A program made the position numbers and the translations under genes. Shown in pieces: positions 7,755 through 16,940 of a stretch of DNA of 64,000 nt (within the stretch, counting starts at the first letter, position 1; each line of letters begins with the position of its first letter). Below the pieces are notes generated by a model that saw only the letters and a program-made list of their open reading frames with translations, was not told the DNA's origin and searched no databases. Location of the stretch: contig JH720392.1 in the NCBI GenBank assembly GCA_000231825.2, positions 124,549 through 188,548 of the forward strand, read 5' to 3'. Source of the DNA: Tetrahymena elliotti 4EA. Its lineage: Eukaryota; Ciliophora; Oligohymenophorea; Hymenostomatida; Tetrahymenidae.

Positions 7755-8565
7755 AATACTTAAAATTAATTAAGATTTACTTCTTTTATTACAAAAAATT
7801 GTAACTTTATTTTTATTCTGTTCACACAAAATACCTAATCCTCTTCAAAAAAAATTTAGTTTAAATTTATTCAAAAATGTATCATTCATTAATTTATCAC
7901 TTTTTTTTAAATTGCTTTAAAATGCTAATTATACAATAAACTATTTTGATACCATATATTTTTTAATATCAGAACCTTAAAAATATTAATAAGAGCAAAA
8001 AAAATTATCAGAAAATTCTATGTATAAAATTAATAAATTTCTCTAAAAATAGCAGTCAAAAGAAGAAATGTGGTATTCTGTTAAAAAAATTACTTTTATC
8101 ATTCAGTTAATATTTTTGTTTTTAAACTTTCTTCTCAAATAAAAATTGGAGTATGTGAATAATTCACTTTAATTATTTTAATTAAATATATGTTAGATCT
8201 TCTTAATTTTATTAAAATTGCATTTTTATAAAAAAAGAATATCTAATTTAATTATTTAATAAAAAAATTTTATTTATTTCATTTTTCTTTTAAAATATCA
8301 TTTGTTTTTCATTGTTTTTAAAAAAATGAATAATTAAGTTTACAACATATAAAAACACAGAAACTAATTACATAAATTAATTTTACACATTTTACATATT
8401 ATAACTTATTTATTCACTTATTTTCAAATTTTAATTTATTTCTGATATAAATCAATGCGCCTTTCATTGATGAGTCTAAAGACACTTTTGTAGTCAATCT
8501 TCTATGCTTTAAGATCAAAATATTATTTTTTTATAAAAAAAAAGTTTAAAAATAATTTTACTCTC
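7755..8565. other. Convergent intergenic region
   Basis: Lies between the 3' ends of the plus-strand gene ending at 7754 and the minus-strand micro-exon gene ending near 8566. No coding frame. One intron-like AG-N6-GTAT motif at about 7932-7945 lies beyond the inferred stop codon. Confidence 0.45.
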
Positions 8566-11500
8566 TCTTGTTAACAGAATCATTTTATAAGAATAACCTT
8601 AGTTCAATTCTTTGTATAGTTATAATTTTACCTTGATAATGTTCAAAATAATTAATTTTTTATATTTTTCATTTTTAACATTTTAAATAATAATAATATT
8701 TACCAACTATTAAATTAGAACAACTTATTAAATGAATTCCACATCAAAAATATGAAATCTATTACTCACTATTTTTATTGTTCGCTTGTAATAAAGTTTA
8801 ATTCAGAATGCAAATATTACAACCTATTTATTTATTTAATTTTGAAAAAATTATAAATATCTCAATTATTTGGAATAAAATGAAAATCTACTCTCTAAAT
8901 GAATAATTATTATCATGCCAAGTTTTTTCAAGATAAATTTACATTCTTTTTAATAAAAATTAAAAAAATTAAAATTTCTAAGAATCTCTAGAATATCTTA
9001 CTTGCTTTTATTTAATTAAATAAATCAAAATATCAATAAAACTTTATGAGATGTTTTAGTATTAATTACATGCTAATTAGATTAAATTTAAATTAGTGTG
9101 ACATACTTCTAAATTTAGCATTTTACTTTCTATTTTTCATCAAATGATATGACATTATTCATTCATTTCTTTTATAAAATCATTTAAATTACGGCCTTTT
9201 ATTAAATTTAATCCATATCTTTTATATTTAACTTTAAATCTTTCAAAAGTGATAATTACTCTCTTATTTATTAGAATAAATTAGTTAAAATCTTTTGATA
9301 TTTAATAAATTAAAATATTACTTCCATCTAGATTTAAAATTAGGAAAGATCTTCACTTAAAATGGTTAATGATTCTTAATTTTACAATCTGTTTTTTTGA
9401 AATTATTTTAAGTATCTGCTAAAATTTAATTCTTAAGATATTACTTCAAGCTTTTGATATTATTTATATTTAGTTAGAAATATTTAATTTTAAATGTATT
9501 TCTTAATATTACTTTGCACTATTTTAAATTCAAAATGTAGATGAATCTCATTAGAATTTATTTAATCCAAAAATATTACTCATAGCTATTTTTATTTTGA
9601 AAGTTATTTTATTATTTTTCAATTTAAAATTATTAAAGTTACTTCTTGCTATTTTTATTTAAAAAATAAATTAAATATCTTTAAATTTAAAATTATTTAA
9701 AGAAATTACTTCCAGCTTTAATGAATGAGTTATTTAAATAAATTATTTTTAAATTAAAAACCTTTTAATTCTTTTAATTTTAAATAATTTATCAAATTAG
9801 ATTACTCGAAGCTATTTATATTTTAAAATTATTAGATTATTTTTTAATTTCAAATTATAATAATTTTTACTCCAAGCTATATTTATTTGAAAATTAAATT
9901 AAATCTCTTTCAACTTAAGATTGTTTAAAGATGTTACTTTTTGCTATTTTAAGTTAGTTATTTAGATAAATAATTTATGTTTCATAAAAATTTCTAAAAA
10001 TAATACTTGAATCTATTTAGTTTCATAGTAAATATGATTTTTTAATACTTTCCAGTCTAAAATGATCAAGTATATTTACTTGCTATTGTTAGTTTTATTT
10101 TGAAAATGAATAGTTGATATTTTAATTAGAAATAGTAAGTAAAATTACATGCTGTTTGAATAAAAGTCAGTTTGAAGTTTAAAATTTACTTGAATAAGAT
10201 TTGAAATCTAATTTACATTCTATTTTGAAAATAAAGAGTCCTTAATTAATCAAGTTTAAAACTAAAAAAGTATTTTAATAATCTGAATTACTCCCTATTT
10301 ATTTCAAAAATTAATTAATTCCATATTTATTCTTTAAGGTAAAAATAATTTTTACTTGCTATTTTTTGTTAGATATTTTGTTAGCTCATTGTTAATGAAA
10401 TAATTCTATCAAAATTCAATTTGAGATATTTCTTTATTTATTACCCACTTGTTTTACATAAAAGTTATTATTATTTATTAAAAAGAACAGTCTCAAATTA
10501 TTACAAGCTTTTAGATTAAATAGATATTTTAGATTTTTTGTCATTGAACTTCATTAATAACTAAAGTTACATTCTTTTAATAGGATCAAGATTTATCACA
10601 AAACTTAAATTATAACTTCAAATTTGCTTACAATCTATTAATTAGCAAACAGTTAGTTGTAAATAAACAAAATCTAATATATTTCTTCTCAATCAATTTA
10701 AACAAAATCTTACGAACTATTTTCAAATTTTAATTTGCAGTCTTTTAATTTCTAATAAAAGCATTTATTTACATCCTATAAAATTTTATTGATAAAGTCC
10801 TGAGAGTAGTTTGTTTAAAAACTTACTTGCTATTTAATATTTAAATAATTTTAAAAATATTCGAATTTAAATACTTTTTTATGATTTACCCACTTTTTAT
10901 TGAATACCAAATGTTTGTTTTGTTATTAAATAAATTGCCATTACATCCTAATATAAATTATAATTTTTCCAGTCTACTTTTAAAGTCTATTTCAATTAAA
11001 TTATTTACTCTTTGCTATATTAAAATAAATCAATTTATGTTAAAAGACATTTGTTTTTACTTTCTATTTTAGGAGATTATATTTAATTAGCATTATTCTA
11101 ATTCAATTTTTTGAAGATATTACAAACTATTTTAAATATTGAATTAAATTTGCTGAAATTAAATTAAGCTTTTAAAGCTTTTACCTTTTTATTTTAATTA
11201 TTTAATTAATTAATTGTTATTAAATTTACAAATTTTAGAAAATTACTCCCAGCTATTTTATAAATAAAATGTATTCTATTGTATGAGTTTCTTATGAGAA
11301 TTCAAATATTCAAAAGTACTCGCTATTTTAGATATAAGCTTAGATTAAAAGAAAAAGAAAATAATAAATTACAATCTATTTTTAGACAAGCAAATTGAAT
11401 TAGACATAATTGATTTGAGGATGAATGTTTCAAATAGAATTACAATCTATTAATTATTTACATAATCATTAAGTAAATAATAAATTTATTCATCAATAAA

Positions 11501-13671
11501 CATATTACGGTCTTGAATTAAATAAGATGGTTTAATTTATGTATGAATTGGTTTCTGTGAATTCAAAATGTACATGCTATTAAATAGAGTAAATTAAAAA
11601 TATTTTCTGCTTTCATTTTCAAAAGATGAATGAATTGTTTACTTCCTTTTATTTTGTAAATTAATTCTAACAATTTGAAATAGGGTGATCAATGATTTAA
11701 AATGGAAGTGTTGATTACTGGCTATTTGATTCATTCATATTTTAATATGTATTACTCAATCAAAGCTATTTGTTTAAAAATCTTACTAACCAATTTCTCT
11801 GATATTTCAATTTTATTATTCAATTTAGCTAACTTTCCTTCAAAATTTTTACTTGGCGCTTTTTTATTATTATTACCAAATATCATGTATGTGTAAATGT
11901 TTGAAATAATTTTACTTGTCGAAATCTCTATAAATAAACAAATCAGTGTAATTTTTTTTAATTAAGCTTCATTCAAACTTCAAAAACTATTTACAGTCTA
12001 ATTAATTAATTATTAATTTATTCATAATTCTTATTTAAATTCAATCAAAATTATTACCTCCTATTTTATATTCATTTAATTTTACTTGTTTCATTTAATT
12101 GATAATATTTCTAAATGTTACTCGCTATTTAGAAATTAATTATTTTTTATACTCCTTTCTTAGTTTAAATTTTATTTACATGCTTTTTCGTAAAATTTAA
12201 TTCAAATTTTAATTAATAAATGAAGAACCATTACTATCTGTTTTATGTTTTTATTATTAATTTCTATTGTCTTAGAAGTATCAATGCTTCATTTACCCTC
12301 TTTTATATTTCAATTTTGCTTAATCAACAGCAAATCTTGATAAATTAAAATAATTTACATCCTATTTTTTTAACATAATTGATTTTAATTAATTTTTTTT
12401 AAAAATAACTACTTTCTATAAAATTTTAAAGCTGTTTCATTAGCTAGACAGAGCAAATGTAAAATTACTTCCTGGATTAAATTTTAAATTAGAAGTTACT
12501 ATCTAAAACGAATTATTTCAAAGCATAGCTTTACTTTCTTTTTTTTAAAATAGTTTTTAAATGAAACCAAAAATATCAAAAGATAAACTGAAATTTTACT
12601 GTCTGTTTAAATTTGGATAAAATAAATAATGTGACTTGTAATTTTTCTACTAAATAACTAGCTAATTGACTAGCCAATTATCTATCTAATAGACTAATCA
12701 ACTAAATAGTTTGTAGATATCTTCAATTTAAGTTCTTACTCACTTTTTATAATTATTTTTAAATTTTACAATTTTGAAGCCCTAAATTTATAATTTTAAG
12801 TCTTACTCGCTGTTTAATATTTTATAGATGCTTTGATTTCATCTAAATTCAATTTCTATTAAATTTTACAAACTATTTTTTACAAATTTTATTTTCTTTC
12901 TAATCTTATTATTCTTATTTTATTTTACATCCTATTTTTAATTGCAAAATTTATTCATTTAAATGCATCTTCATCTTTCAATCTAAAATCCTTTCAGAAT
13001 ATTAATTAATTACATCCTATTTTTAATATGAAAGCATGCATCATCATCATCTTCATCTTTCAATCTAAAATCCTTCAAGAATATTAATTAATTACAAGCT
13101 ATTTTTATGAAAATAAATAAATAAATTGGACATGCATCATCTTCATCTTTCAATCTAAAATCATTCAAGAATATTAATTAATTACTAGCTATTTTTAATA
13201 TGAAAATAAATAAATAAATTGAGCATGCATCATCATCTTCATCATGATCTTTCATTTAAGAATATAAATTGATTACTCTCTATTTTTAATGGAAAAATAA
13301 TGAGAGTGTGAGTAAGTTAAAAATGAAATGAAAATATACGAGCTATTAAAAATAAATAAGTTATAAAAGCATTCTGTTTGTTCAAATGAGTCAAAAGAGG
13401 TAAGAAAATATTTATTTATCTAAAGCTTTACAGACTTTTTAGAATAAAAGTGTTAGGATTTTATGAATATTTGCAAAATATTACTATCTACATTTTAATT
13501 TTACAAAAATAAATTTTATTTTTAAATTGCATGAAAAAAGAGAATTTACCCTCTTGAATGATTTAATTACATTAAATTATTTTGTTTCAGCATTAAAAAA
13601 CATACTTTCTATAAGAACAAATAAAAGGATATAACTATTTGCAAGCATTACTTAATTATCAAAATTACTTC
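8566..13671 (-). other. Array of ~74 in-frame micro-exons (3, 6 or 12 nt)
   Basis: On the minus strand the pattern (T/A)AG - 3, 6 or 12 nt - GTAA/GTAT recurs every 50-95 bp. Low coordinates of the 3-nt exons: 13669 13606 13550 13485 13432 13340 13277 13186 13096 13014 12929 12870 12807 12740 12600 12535 12469 12413 12359 12297 12235 12180 12122 12058 11995 11719 11643 11574 11509 11444 11373 11320 11124 11061 10945 10890 10827 10773 10714 10632 10571 10505 10445 10356 10292 10217 10149 10080 9386 9260 9193 9127 9070 9002 8943 8892 8821 8766 8704. 6-nt: 11853 11247 11009 10007 9938 9871 9806 9710 9643 9580 9513 9445 9322. 12-nt: 11916 11787. Uncertain: 12-nt at 12770 and 3-nt at 12500, which would leave very short introns. 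Joined in phase 2 they read about 93 codons without TGA, for example YIERLDFDNAKEIGY and GKISLIFGKEIIKFNKNLDF, then stop. The two other phases hit TGA. Confidence 0.65.
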
Positions 13672-16600
13672 CTTAAAAATAGATAAAAAGAATATATATT
13701 TAATATTTTTCAAATCTTTTAAAAATTTCATTAAATCAAATAAAATCTCCATTTTTTTGAATATTTTTAATCTAAATTTGTTAGTAAATCTTAATGTTTA
13801 ACCAAAATATTTCCAAAACTGAGTGAGCGTATTCATTTTATAAGAATTCTGGATCCTTAGTAAAACTGCACAAAAGTCCTCAAGTAAAAAGTTGCACATC
13901 AAAATTGCGTGGTAATTAGTGCAGTACTGTACAAAGTTTTACTGAATATTACATTAGTAGCAAAAAACGAATTTTTTTTCTTTTAATACATAAATTTGCG
14001 CAAACTTAAATTATTAAAGAGAACTCAAATTAGAATAAAAGCTATGGTGAACTAAGTAAGAATAAAAAAATTAAAATGTTTGATTCTTTTTTTCTAAAAA
14101 TATTTANNNNNNNNNNNNNNNNNNNNNNNNNNNNNNNNNNNNNNNNNNNNNNNNNNNNNNNNNNNNNNNNNNNNNNNNNNNNNNNNNNNNNNNNNNNNNN
14201 NNNNNNNNNNNNNNNNNNNNNNNNNNNNNNNNNNNNNNNNNNNNNNNNNNNNNNNNNNNNNNNNNNNNNNNNNNNNNNNNNNNNNNNNNNNNNNNNNNNN
14301 NNNNNNNNNNNNNNNNNNNNNNNNNNNNNNNNNNNNNNNNNNNNNNNNNNNNNNNNNNNNNNNNNNNNNNNNNNNNNNNNNNNNNNNNNNNNNNNNNNNN
14401 NNNNNNNNNNNNNNNNNNNNNNNNNNNNNNNNNNNNNNNNNNNNNNNNNNNNNNNNNNNNNNNNNNNNNNNNNNNNNNNNNNNNNNNNNNNNNNNNNNNN
14501 NNNNNNNNNNNNNNNNNNNNNNNNNNNNNNNNNNNNNNNNNNNNNNNNNNNNNNNNNNNNNNNNNNNNNNNNNNNNNNNNNNNNNNNNNNNNNNNNNNNN
14601 NNNNNNNNNNNNNNNNNNNNNNNNNNNNNNNNNNNNTTATTTTGAACGCACTTACTTTTACCTGAGCTGTGTAGCTAAGTCTTGGTTCTACTAACTTACC
14701 AAGAATTCTTTTCTAAAAATAAAATTTTATTTTTTGCATATCAAAATTATTTATGATTTATTTGATTTGTTGAAAAAGGAGAGAATCAAGTTATTTGACA
14801 AGAATTAATTACTTGTTGTTTTAAACTTTGATTTGCTAAACAATCTCTTGGTTCATCTCATTTTGCTGAATGAGTGCTTACTAACTGAAAACCTAATAAG
14901 TATTTGCTTATTAATTTTAAATAATTGGTTAAATATTTTGTTGCATGCTTTTTTATTAAGCTATTTCTTTTTATTATTTGCTCATAGTATTTTTCAGACT
15001 TTCAATTTCTTTTTTCAACCCTTTAATAATTTAATCCTTTTTTTATATAAATTAATAGGTTAAAAATTTATCTTCAAATTAAATAAATCAACTTGCTAGT
15101 ATTGGTCGTTGCCTTAAATTTCTTAAACGAGTTGCTAGAGCATATTATTTTCATTTTCACTAAAAAAATATTAAAATTTTATTTTGAGGAGATTAATAAA
15201 ATAAAGTAAATAAAGTACAAGATTGGGTAAAACTTATCTTCAAAATGCTGAACTAACTCCATTTATTATTGGAATGGCTGAATTAATTGCTATACTACTT
15301 CACTTTTGGCTTCCATGAGTTCGACAAACTTGCTTTCTAAAGAAAATTCTAATGAAATAATTCCTTTTAATATAATTAAAATATCCTTTATTTAAAACCT
15401 ATTTCTTGGAATGAATTAAGTCAATCCATCAATAATGTATTGAAGTTGCTTCTTGTAAGTGAAATTTTAGAAGTCAGGCCCGTATTGCAAAGGATTGTGC
15501 TTGTTGAAGATCAGTTATGGATTTAATCCTGAAATCATTGCATAAATTAGGTAACCTGTTATTAATTTTATATCATTAAGAAGAAAAATATAGATGAACT
15601 CTTAATTTTATAGTCAGTAAGTTAGTTAGTTAGTTAGTTAGTTACCTAAAGAACATGCTTCACTCTATTTTAAGTTAGTTTATAAAATTGAAATATATTA
15701 ATTATATCGACTAGAAATTTACTATTTGACTTGGCTCTCTCTTAACAGCAATTCCTAATTGTTAGTATTCCAAAGAGTAAGTGTCAAATTCTTGAGGATC
15801 ATAACACTCAGGAGCCTAAAATGCTGCGTTTCTCATCTTTGATAGCGAAATTGGTTACTTAATAAAATGAAAAGAAGCATTTGATTTGAAATTAATTACA
15901 TATAAGCCAACTGAATATCCTGATTATCCTGATTATTTAGGGAGATGATTAGCCAACCCAAAATCAGCTAGTTTTTTAAACATCGTGAAAATTAGATCTT
16001 TTTAATTTTTCCTAAACAAATGCTTACAAACAACTGCATTTCCATTGTAGTCAATCAAGATATTATCCATCTTAAGGTCATTGACCAAACAATTCTTTGA
16101 ATGAATAAAGCAAAGTCCCTCAGCTATATCCTTTCCATACTTGATTGCAGATAATTCATTCAATCTTCTATTAGGATTCCTCAAGATGATTTGATTAAGA
16201 GTTCCTATTTTTTAAAAGTATCTGATAAGATTATCTCCTAACTTAAATTGTTAGCTTAGTAATTAATTAAGCATAAGCAAATTTTTTTATATTTTTACCT
16301 AAGCACTCAGTGAGTATGAGATAAACATACTAGCTTCCTTCAATTTTTCCAACAAAATTGACAACATAAGGTGATCCTTTGCATTTATTGAGTATTTCAA
16401 TTTCTTGGTTGACCTATTTTAAGGTATTTTAATCAATATTTCCTTGGGAATCTTTAACACGTATTCCTTTGATGGCAAATCTTTTATTAGAAAATTATTC
16501 CTAAGCTAGAACAACTAAGCCCTAAGCTCCTTATCCTAAATACCTAAAGTCTCTATATCCCTTTTAAGATAGTTCATTTTTCATAGCAATATAGATATTA

Positions 16601-16940
16601 TTCAAGGTTGCATTCAAATTAGGGTCTTACATATCCTGAACTAAGGGTTTAAATAAAATTAGCAATGGATTAGAAAAGTGTTTGTTGATTTAATATTAGT
16701 TAGATTGAATAAAATAGCAAAGGCTTATAATTCTCAAAATAGTGATTTCATAATCAATGGTTTTAATAATTATGATTAAAAATCATAAAATAAGTATTTA
16801 CTCAATAATTCTTGATTATCAAGAATCTATATACCCTTGTCAGCATACATCTTCTTAATTGACTGCCTATTTTCTATGTGCTAAACTAGCTTCTGCTTAA
16901 AATCCTTAATTTGCTATAGATTTATATTATATGAGTTCAT
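8566..16940 (-). CDS. Protein kinase with micro-exon C-terminal half
   Basis: Starts at ATG 16940. Exons: 16802..16940, 16299..16640, 16028..16237, 15900..15967, 15731..15857, 15234..15555, 15093..15159, 14813..15036, 14662..14712, an assembly gap, 13803..13865, then the micro-exon array. Residues about 70-380 form a kinase domain: glycine loop YLGQGAQGLVVLA, lysine in FAIKG, catalytic loop CLVNDLKMDN (an HRD variant that keeps Asp), SDFGLAN, and QAPECYD. A glutamine-rich coiled coil follows (IQQNEMNQEIVQQIKVQNN). All splice phases agree; the 15731/15555 junction (GTCAAATAG donor) is the weakest. The last part is spelled by tiny phase-2 exons that end in TGA across 8704/8566. About 630 residues are visible outside the gap. 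The kinase is secure; the micro-exon reading is inference from sequence. Confidence 0.7.
14107..14636. other. Assembly gap (530 N)
   Basis: Run of N inside the micro-exon kinase gene, between the exons at 14662..14712 and 13803..13865. Both flanking exons are phase 2, so the missing piece may hold one or more exons of length divisible by three, or intron only. Confidence 0.99.

Follow-up and report, generated by a model that had tools for sequence, protein, structure and literature searches.

A tandem array of one-codon micro-exons predicted to encode the C-terminal domain of a ciliate kinase family

In the 64,000-nucleotide stretch of Tetrahymena elliotti 4EA contig JH720392.1 analysed here (the window), the minus strand carries a coiled-coil kinase gene followed by a tandem array of micro-exons, most of them a single codon long. 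In all likelihood, the array is real and consists of about 75 exons that are spliced together and, read in phase 2, are predicted to supply the kinase with a C-terminal domain of about 93 residues; other kinase genes of this family in the genome are predicted to have their C-terminal domain composed likewise. Conserved within the kinase family, for which 33 loci were found, at least 18 of them with array sites nearby, this C-terminal domain is very likely encoded by one-codon exons. The window array is a member of a multi-gene class, which extends the single-gene view of the original prediction made from this DNA.

The evidence begins with the spacing of splice-site-like motifs. When AG-Nk-GTA is counted on the minus strand of 8566-13671 for k from 0 to 20, AG-N3-GTA occurs 59 times, AG-N6-GTA 14 times and AG-N12-GTA 4 times, and each remaining k gives 0–6 matches and no enrichment. 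The strict AG-N(3k)-GTA spacing that had been claimed is thus borne out, for k = 3, 6 and 12 and on the minus strand only. In 200 second-order Markov sequences, k = 3 reaches a mean of 4.8 and a maximum of 11, and k = 6 a mean of 5.3 and a maximum of 12. The plus strand of the same region holds two k = 3 sites, and the background in the rest of the window is approximately 3 per 5.1 kb on either strand. Chaining at intron-like distances with k = 3, 6 or 12 yields minus-strand chains of 38, 16 and 14 sites; no chain of at least five sites is formed with k = 4/7/13, with k = 5/8/14 or with a mixed control, nor anywhere else in the 64 kb. An origin of the spacing in chance or base composition is ruled out by the Markov sequences, the opposite strand, the other spacings and the genome-wide reversed-pattern control described below.

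The final chain model, built by dynamic programming with splice-site matrices, contains 76 sites (60 of 3 nt, 13 of 6 nt, 2 of 12 nt and one of 0 nt) separated by 75 introns of 46–90 nt with a median of 61 nt. The original prediction had proposed some 74 micro-exons of 3, 6 or 12 nt over about 5 kb of one strand, with introns of about 45–95 nt; the chain gives 75, and the earlier array coordinates prove right within a few exons. The donors are GTAA (67), GTAT (3), GTAG (2), GTAC (2) and GTTA (1), and the acceptors are TAG (48), AAG (20) and CAG (7); GT-AG at all 75 introns follows from the construction of the chain. Donors and acceptors are of the spliceosomal type, with the enrichment confined to one strand. 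The G+C content is 0.34 in the exons and 0.18 in the introns, in line with the earlier remark that the micro-exons are richer in G+C than their flanks. The main features of the array are as follows.

8704..13671, minus strand: micro-exon array of 75 micro-exons and one zero-length site, with 75 introns, phase 2.
12932..13276, minus strand: four consecutive near-copy introns, with neighbour identities of 0.84, 0.79 and 0.84.
11787..11927, minus strand: least divided part of the array, with exons 11927-11916 (12 nt), 11858-11853 (6 nt) and 11798-11787 (12 nt).
11184..11185, minus strand: zero-length site AG/GTAA between exons CTGGGA and TTT, flanked by introns of 62 and 58 nt.
8631..8632, minus strand: AG/GT without an exon, outside the chain, with 72 and 67 nt of the final 139-nt gap on its two sides.
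8564..8706, minus strand: array end, where exon TTG (8706-8704) gives the TG of a split TGA and the next exon, starting at 8566 or 8564, gives the A.

Together with adjoining bases, the least divided part spells L-D-F-D-N-A-K-E-I-G-Y. The AG/GT at 8631-8632 has a counterpart in the paralogue L021, with 74 and 67 nt on its two sides. At the lower end of the array, a reading of the gene onwards to about 8405 was dropped; since family members terminate in phase 2 with TGA, the stop of the original prediction is preferred. Two pattern sites, 12502 (ATA) and 12158 (AAAGGA), are excluded from the chain, as they would require introns of 21–32 nt. This exclusion is a judgement, since annotated introns of T. 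thermophila go down to 18 nt (PMC3341644), but it is consistent with how the conserved IGxI-D motif is spaced.

Similar arrays recur across the genome (90 Mb, 134 contigs). A pattern of three sites in a row has 164 matches genome-wide versus 2 for its reversed control, and two other array patterns have 248 versus 36 and 60 versus 2. From these searches, 28 stretches were taken by pattern match or kinase, so that their enrichment is not independent, and 26 of them were scanned for chains. In the 26 stretches and the window piece, 30 forward chains of at least 6 sites are found; no chain of at least 6 sites appears on the reverse strands or with the exon length shifted by 1 or 2, which constitutes independent evidence despite the selection of the stretches. 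In the final chain model, 23 chains have at least 15 sites. A similar kinase lies upstream of several arrays. With a single kinase exon as the query, 33 loci are recovered at E ≤ 1e-11 (two loci fill two rows each), and in 18 of the 33, judged by position, array sites follow on the kinase's strand no more than 10 kb downstream; a further kinase locus, C3:2302078, has a single pair match only. The close relatives C10 and C17:759924 show seven visible sites, opening GAA AAA AGG ATA like the window array. Runs of N limit the array lengths within or beside L015, L017, L023, L025, L035 and L036, as they do over much of C10 and C17:759924.

The coding evidence comes from the reading frame and from a shared peptide. 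TAA and TAG are taken as sense codons, as the kinase matches in this genome cross many TAA and TAG and few TGA. Over 15 chains (leaving aside L016, L019, L022, L024, C24d, C18, L020, L023, L025 and short chains, and the last four codons of each chain), TGA occurs in 48 of 1009 codons in phase 0, in 34 of 994 in phase 1 and in 1 of 994 in phase 2. Shuffling of the exon order gives phase 2 a mean of 14.8 TGA, with a minimum of 5 in 1000 shuffles. In the window array, phase 2 alone is open and ends in the split TGA, as had been proposed. Furthermore, a profile built from the arrays of other groups was scored on the array left out, with 300 exon-order shuffles each, for 11 arrays (L021 and C24a being set aside in addition to the chains named above). 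The score exceeds all 300 of the array's own shuffles in 11 of 11 arrays. In the case of the window array, phase 2 scores 48.9 bits, the other phases 0.0 and −0.3 bits, and the shuffles at most 10.3 bits. In a blastn comparison of nine arrays, the window array DNA is alignable over 5% with C24c, 5% with C33b, 3% with L012 and 1% with C3a; C23b and L013 yield no alignment, and C24b is considered below. Little or none of the window array DNA (0–14%) can be aligned with five other groups. Even so, a single domain family emerges from the arrays of different groups when they are read in phase 2, and in no other phase. The original prediction had named missing codon-level conservation in related species as evidence against it; examined on paralogues within the same genome, its coding interpretation withstands this check and is supported.

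Ten aligned array peptides (L012 left out) contain invariant G, G, G and N and share the motif IGxI - QNM - KxIGxVSL - GKKIY - NCEYELF. In the window, the predicted peptide includes the stretch EIGYQNIPLFDWDLNK, which spans many micro-exons, and ends in NIKIEFD, a variant of NCEYELF; family ends are CEYELF-like and followed by TGA. The predicted peptides of the 11 arrays measure 70–97 residues as modelled, some of them lacking a start. Refined window-array peptides match no Pfam family, hence no leucine-rich repeats. The first peptide model of the window matched the 5-fold beta-flower (PF21785, cut-off 38 bits) at 14.6 bits and E 0.03, below the cut-off, and this weak match vanished in the refined models. 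The L013 peptide scores 19.5 bits (E 0.00088) against PF21785, half of the 38-bit cut-off, so that the beta-flower stays a lead. Among solved structures, the domain profile weakly matches three chains (E 0.07–0.22), and one early peptide model matches short stretches of repeat proteins (E 0.0008–0.0017). No undivided copy of the domain was found in the genome, by a search without a positive control.

The gene upstream of the array was described earlier as a kinase and coiled-coil gene, correctly so, as its parts indicate.

15160..16940, minus strand: protein kinase exons, placed by eye, with an ATG at 16940.
14815..15036, minus strand: coiled-coil exon, with a relative 82% identical at the C17:759924 locus.
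14662..14712, minus strand: likely exon KRILGKLVEPRLSYTAQ, inferred by eye, after the coiled coil.
14107..14636, no strand: run of N between the coiled-coil exons and the array.
13803..13865, minus strand: linker exon of 63 nt, FTKDPEFLQNEYAHSVLEIF, phase 2 at both ends, donor GTTA.

The hand-joined kinase exons, placed by eye, match Pfam Pkinase (PF00069) at 112.8 bits against a cut-off of 31.7. A relative of the linker exon precedes the array of the C17:759924 kinase. Among the best 7987 candidates scored, the relatives of the window gene are 34 proteins, mostly Tetrahymena kinases, including 26 from T. thermophila, 1 from T. malaccensis and 2 from T. utriculariae; the best T. thermophila relative matches 76% of the query at 57% identity. 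In the window kinase, the glycine loop, AIK and DFG look intact. In the catalytic loop, HRD is replaced by VND (VNDLKMDN, approximately 16090-16060, minus strand), also in relatives, and judged from the sequence such kinases would be without the usual arginine. In addition, ATTCTTATAAAATGA is common to the linker exon (13855-13836) and a stretch just past the array (8597-8580), both on the minus strand; this sharing reflects either chance or an old duplication.

Splice sites are conserved between close paralogues while the codons move. In five paralogue pairs, the AG and GTA beside 3-nt exons differ by 2–4%, and the exon bases at positions 1, 2 and 3 by 24, 26 and 20%; intron cores differ by 19.4% in four pairs. 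Counted as exons of the first member, shared boundaries amount to 56/56 for C24a-C24b, 62/73 for C24b-C24c, 57/65 for C33a-C33b, 55/77 for C23b-C23c and 69/76 for C3a-C3b. They fall to 26/76 between the window array and L021, and to 23/34 between the second C24a array and C24b. L021 is a partial paralogue and looks like a decaying copy.

L021 3732-5852: partial paralogue of the window array, short, with several splice sites lost.

The hand-pooled pS/pN values of five pairs (both C24a pairs excluded) are 0.43/0.26 in phase 2, 0.23/0.27 in phase 0 and 0.36/0.26 in phase 1. Unchanged codons are in excess (108 of 206 versus 91.8 expected), and codons replaced at all three bases number 9 of 206 versus 2.7 expected. 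We take this pattern to mean that the core of the domain is fixed while many of its positions are free to vary; it falls short of demonstrating positive selection.

Several observations count against a conserved coding domain. In the chain model, which itself permits only exon lengths divisible by three, C3b holds one internal TGA, and the GTTA donor after exon 12661-12659 of the window is weak. L012 is a weak member, at 16.6 bits against shuffles of up to 9.4. The groups are not fully independent, as the C24 and C33 arrays align over 39–49% at 72–73% identity, and 14% of the window array aligns with C24b. Over seven paralogue pairs, the differences at exon positions 1, 2 and 3 number 100, 101 and 72 of 408; codon position 3 does not clearly stand out as the least constrained, and the position test alone lends no support to phase 2. 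Codons even diverge slightly faster than intron cores (0.236 versus 0.194). Moreover, no database relative of the domain is found at E ≤ 10 among 6869 candidates of 0.55–1.75 times the query length, and the 34 kinase relatives contain no convincing match to it, the best being a non-Tetrahymena kinase at E 0.039. Were gene-finding programs unable to place exons of 3 nt, the lack of the domain in annotated relatives would be no surprise.

This lack could also be explained if the kinase ended before the array and the array were non-coding, a set of splice-site-like repeats forming a decoy or decayed stretch: the annotated T. thermophila relatives do stop before such a domain, and the short paralogue L021 no longer has several of the splice sites. 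Such an explanation is very improbable, however, in view of the open phase 2 with homologous phase-2 peptides in several groups, and of splice sites kept to within differences of 2–4%. The spacers might instead be removed from DNA rather than from RNA. Ciliates remove internal eliminated sequences from DNA, and the host is a Tetrahymena-like ciliate; yet the spacers start with GTA (74 of 75) and end with AG on the coding strand only, like spliceosomal introns, which leaves DNA elimination the least credible reading of all. A stronger rival accepts the micro-exons as real but regards them as largely optional, the array serving as a generator of many isoforms and not of one domain. The modelled exons all have lengths divisible by three and stay in phase 2, so that skipping alters single residues, and the codons change as fast as the introns. 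The fixed motifs running across many exons, with the invariant G, G, G and N, nevertheless point to regular inclusion of those exons, and a largely optional array is unlikely. A regularly spliced run of exons coding for one domain remains the preferred reading.

Under that reading, the coding sequence was probably less divided at first, and the lattice formed as introns were copied locally into it; this is suggested by adjacent introns that resemble each other closely although the codons next to them are unrelated. Neighbouring introns are at least 75% identical in 21 of 1025 pairs, compared with 1 of 1025 random pairs; a second count with zero-length sites removed gives 22 neighbour pairs at this threshold (mean identity 0.79). 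The codons following these 22 near-copy pairs are identical in 2 cases and agree at 26% of bases, against 0.32 beside dissimilar introns. Amid the near-copy introns at 13276-12932, the codons are AGA, CTA, CTT, GAT and GAT, one equal pair included. Alternatively, the array may have grown by duplication of exon-plus-intron units, selection then replacing the codons and the protein lengthening with the array. The near-identical neighbouring introns, the surplus of three-base codon replacements between paralogues (9/206 versus 2.7) and the varying lengths of the array peptides (70–97 residues as modelled) are all compatible with it. Unit duplication should copy the codons too, and at that age should leave many of them alike, which is at odds with the 2 of 22 and the 26%; we hold this alternative to be possible though doubtful, and the data are better matched by introns having been copied in between codons that already existed.

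The proposed splicing runs by intron definition on introns of approximately 60 nt, because exon definition could hardly act on 3 nt, whereas an intron of ~60 nt is long enough to be defined as such; PMC6564038 gives a length of about 50 bp for background introns in Tetrahymena. The simplest arrangement would be a progressive order in which each 3-nt exon is joined to the upstream sequence before its own donor is used. No micro-exon would then be recognised alone, and one codon would be added per step. Zero-length AG/GT sites, of which the chains contain 15 with 46–74 nt on either side, would act as plain ratchet points. Some of them stand at the same place in the paralogues C24b/C24c, C33a/C33b and C3a/C3b, and two face a codon in the paralogue (C33a against CAA, C23b against GCT). 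In the arrays (75 kb), AGGTAR counts favour the coding strand, 51 versus 15; exon ends generally favour AG before GT. These zero-length sites fit ordered splicing. As to function, the domain likely serves recognition or regulation, with few positions fixed and many codons changing as fast as introns. In the fullest account, intron copies were driven between codons until the domain stood at one codon per exon, to be read out in more than 70 ratchet-like splicing steps, taken in order and adding one codon or none each, giving an expanded kinase family a freely mutable recognition domain. We give this account as a whole about an even chance.

Five further arrays, with 18–42 sites, are open in phase 0, so that each 3-nt exon is exactly one codon.

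L016 4478-6658: phase-0 array.
L022 3524-4596: phase-0 array.
L024 2425-3886: phase-0 array.
L019 3975-5672, reverse complement: phase-0 array.
L032 3379-6063, reverse complement: phase-0 array.

Most of them open with an aromatic-x-x-aromatic-acidic pattern (WEKYED, YTSYEE, WTSFEK, WNNWDN), and one follows a different kinase. No profile similarity is detected among the phase-0 arrays L016, L019, L022, L024 and C24d, which score 1.1–3.7 bits against shuffles reaching up to 5.2–9.3. The phase-0 arrays may be a second class.

If the arrays are spliced as proposed, splicing must link one codon to the next with accuracy dozens of times over, and runs of this kind in many genes would set a new lower limit on the size of the pieces from which splicing can still assemble a coding sequence. 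They would also be a natural system in which to assay intron definition, the order of splicing and exons of zero length. Multiplication of introns, seen at the resolution of one codon, would furthermore bear on the open question of intron gain. The annotated T. thermophila relatives, which lack the domain, suggest that entire domains can escape annotation.

No description of one-codon exon arrays was found in the open-licence PMC literature, in which the phrase 'one-codon exon' has no match. Several known systems share single aspects with them. Recursive splicing takes place at zero-length exons, where AG/GT marks the point at which one intron directly follows another; in the present case, such sites are mixed into a predicted array where most steps add one codon. 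Introners are families of near-identical new introns, and the arrays likewise contain near-identical introns beside unrelated coding sequence (22 pairs, with 2 of 22 following codons identical), but here the copies adjoin each other, one codon apart. The leucine-rich repeat (LRR) genes of Tetrahymena, as presented in the accessible part of PMC6564038, form tandem exon arrays in a fast-evolving multigene family with an extreme phase-2 bias, comparable to the open phase 2 and the linker exon in phase 2 at both ends; their exons are 90 bp with one LRR each, whereas those described here are 3–12 nt and belong to a non-LRR kinase domain. Aphid bicycle and megacycle genes also possess many small internal exons, nearly all in phase 2, with highly divergent sequences, and one megacycle gene has more than 100 microexons; organism and proteins are different, and in the portion of PMC9168663 available the exons are small and not described as single codons. 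Isolated microexons of 3 nt, for example in Ncam (PMC8042270), are one-codon exons of a length divisible by three, but they stand singly among ordinary exons, in contrast to dozens in a row. The shortest exon tabulated for T. thermophila and Ichthyophthirius is 2 nt (PMC3341644), so that tiny annotated exons as such are not new in these two ciliates. Compared with these systems, the arrays, very likely real on the sequence evidence, would represent a new and extreme form of micro-exon genes.

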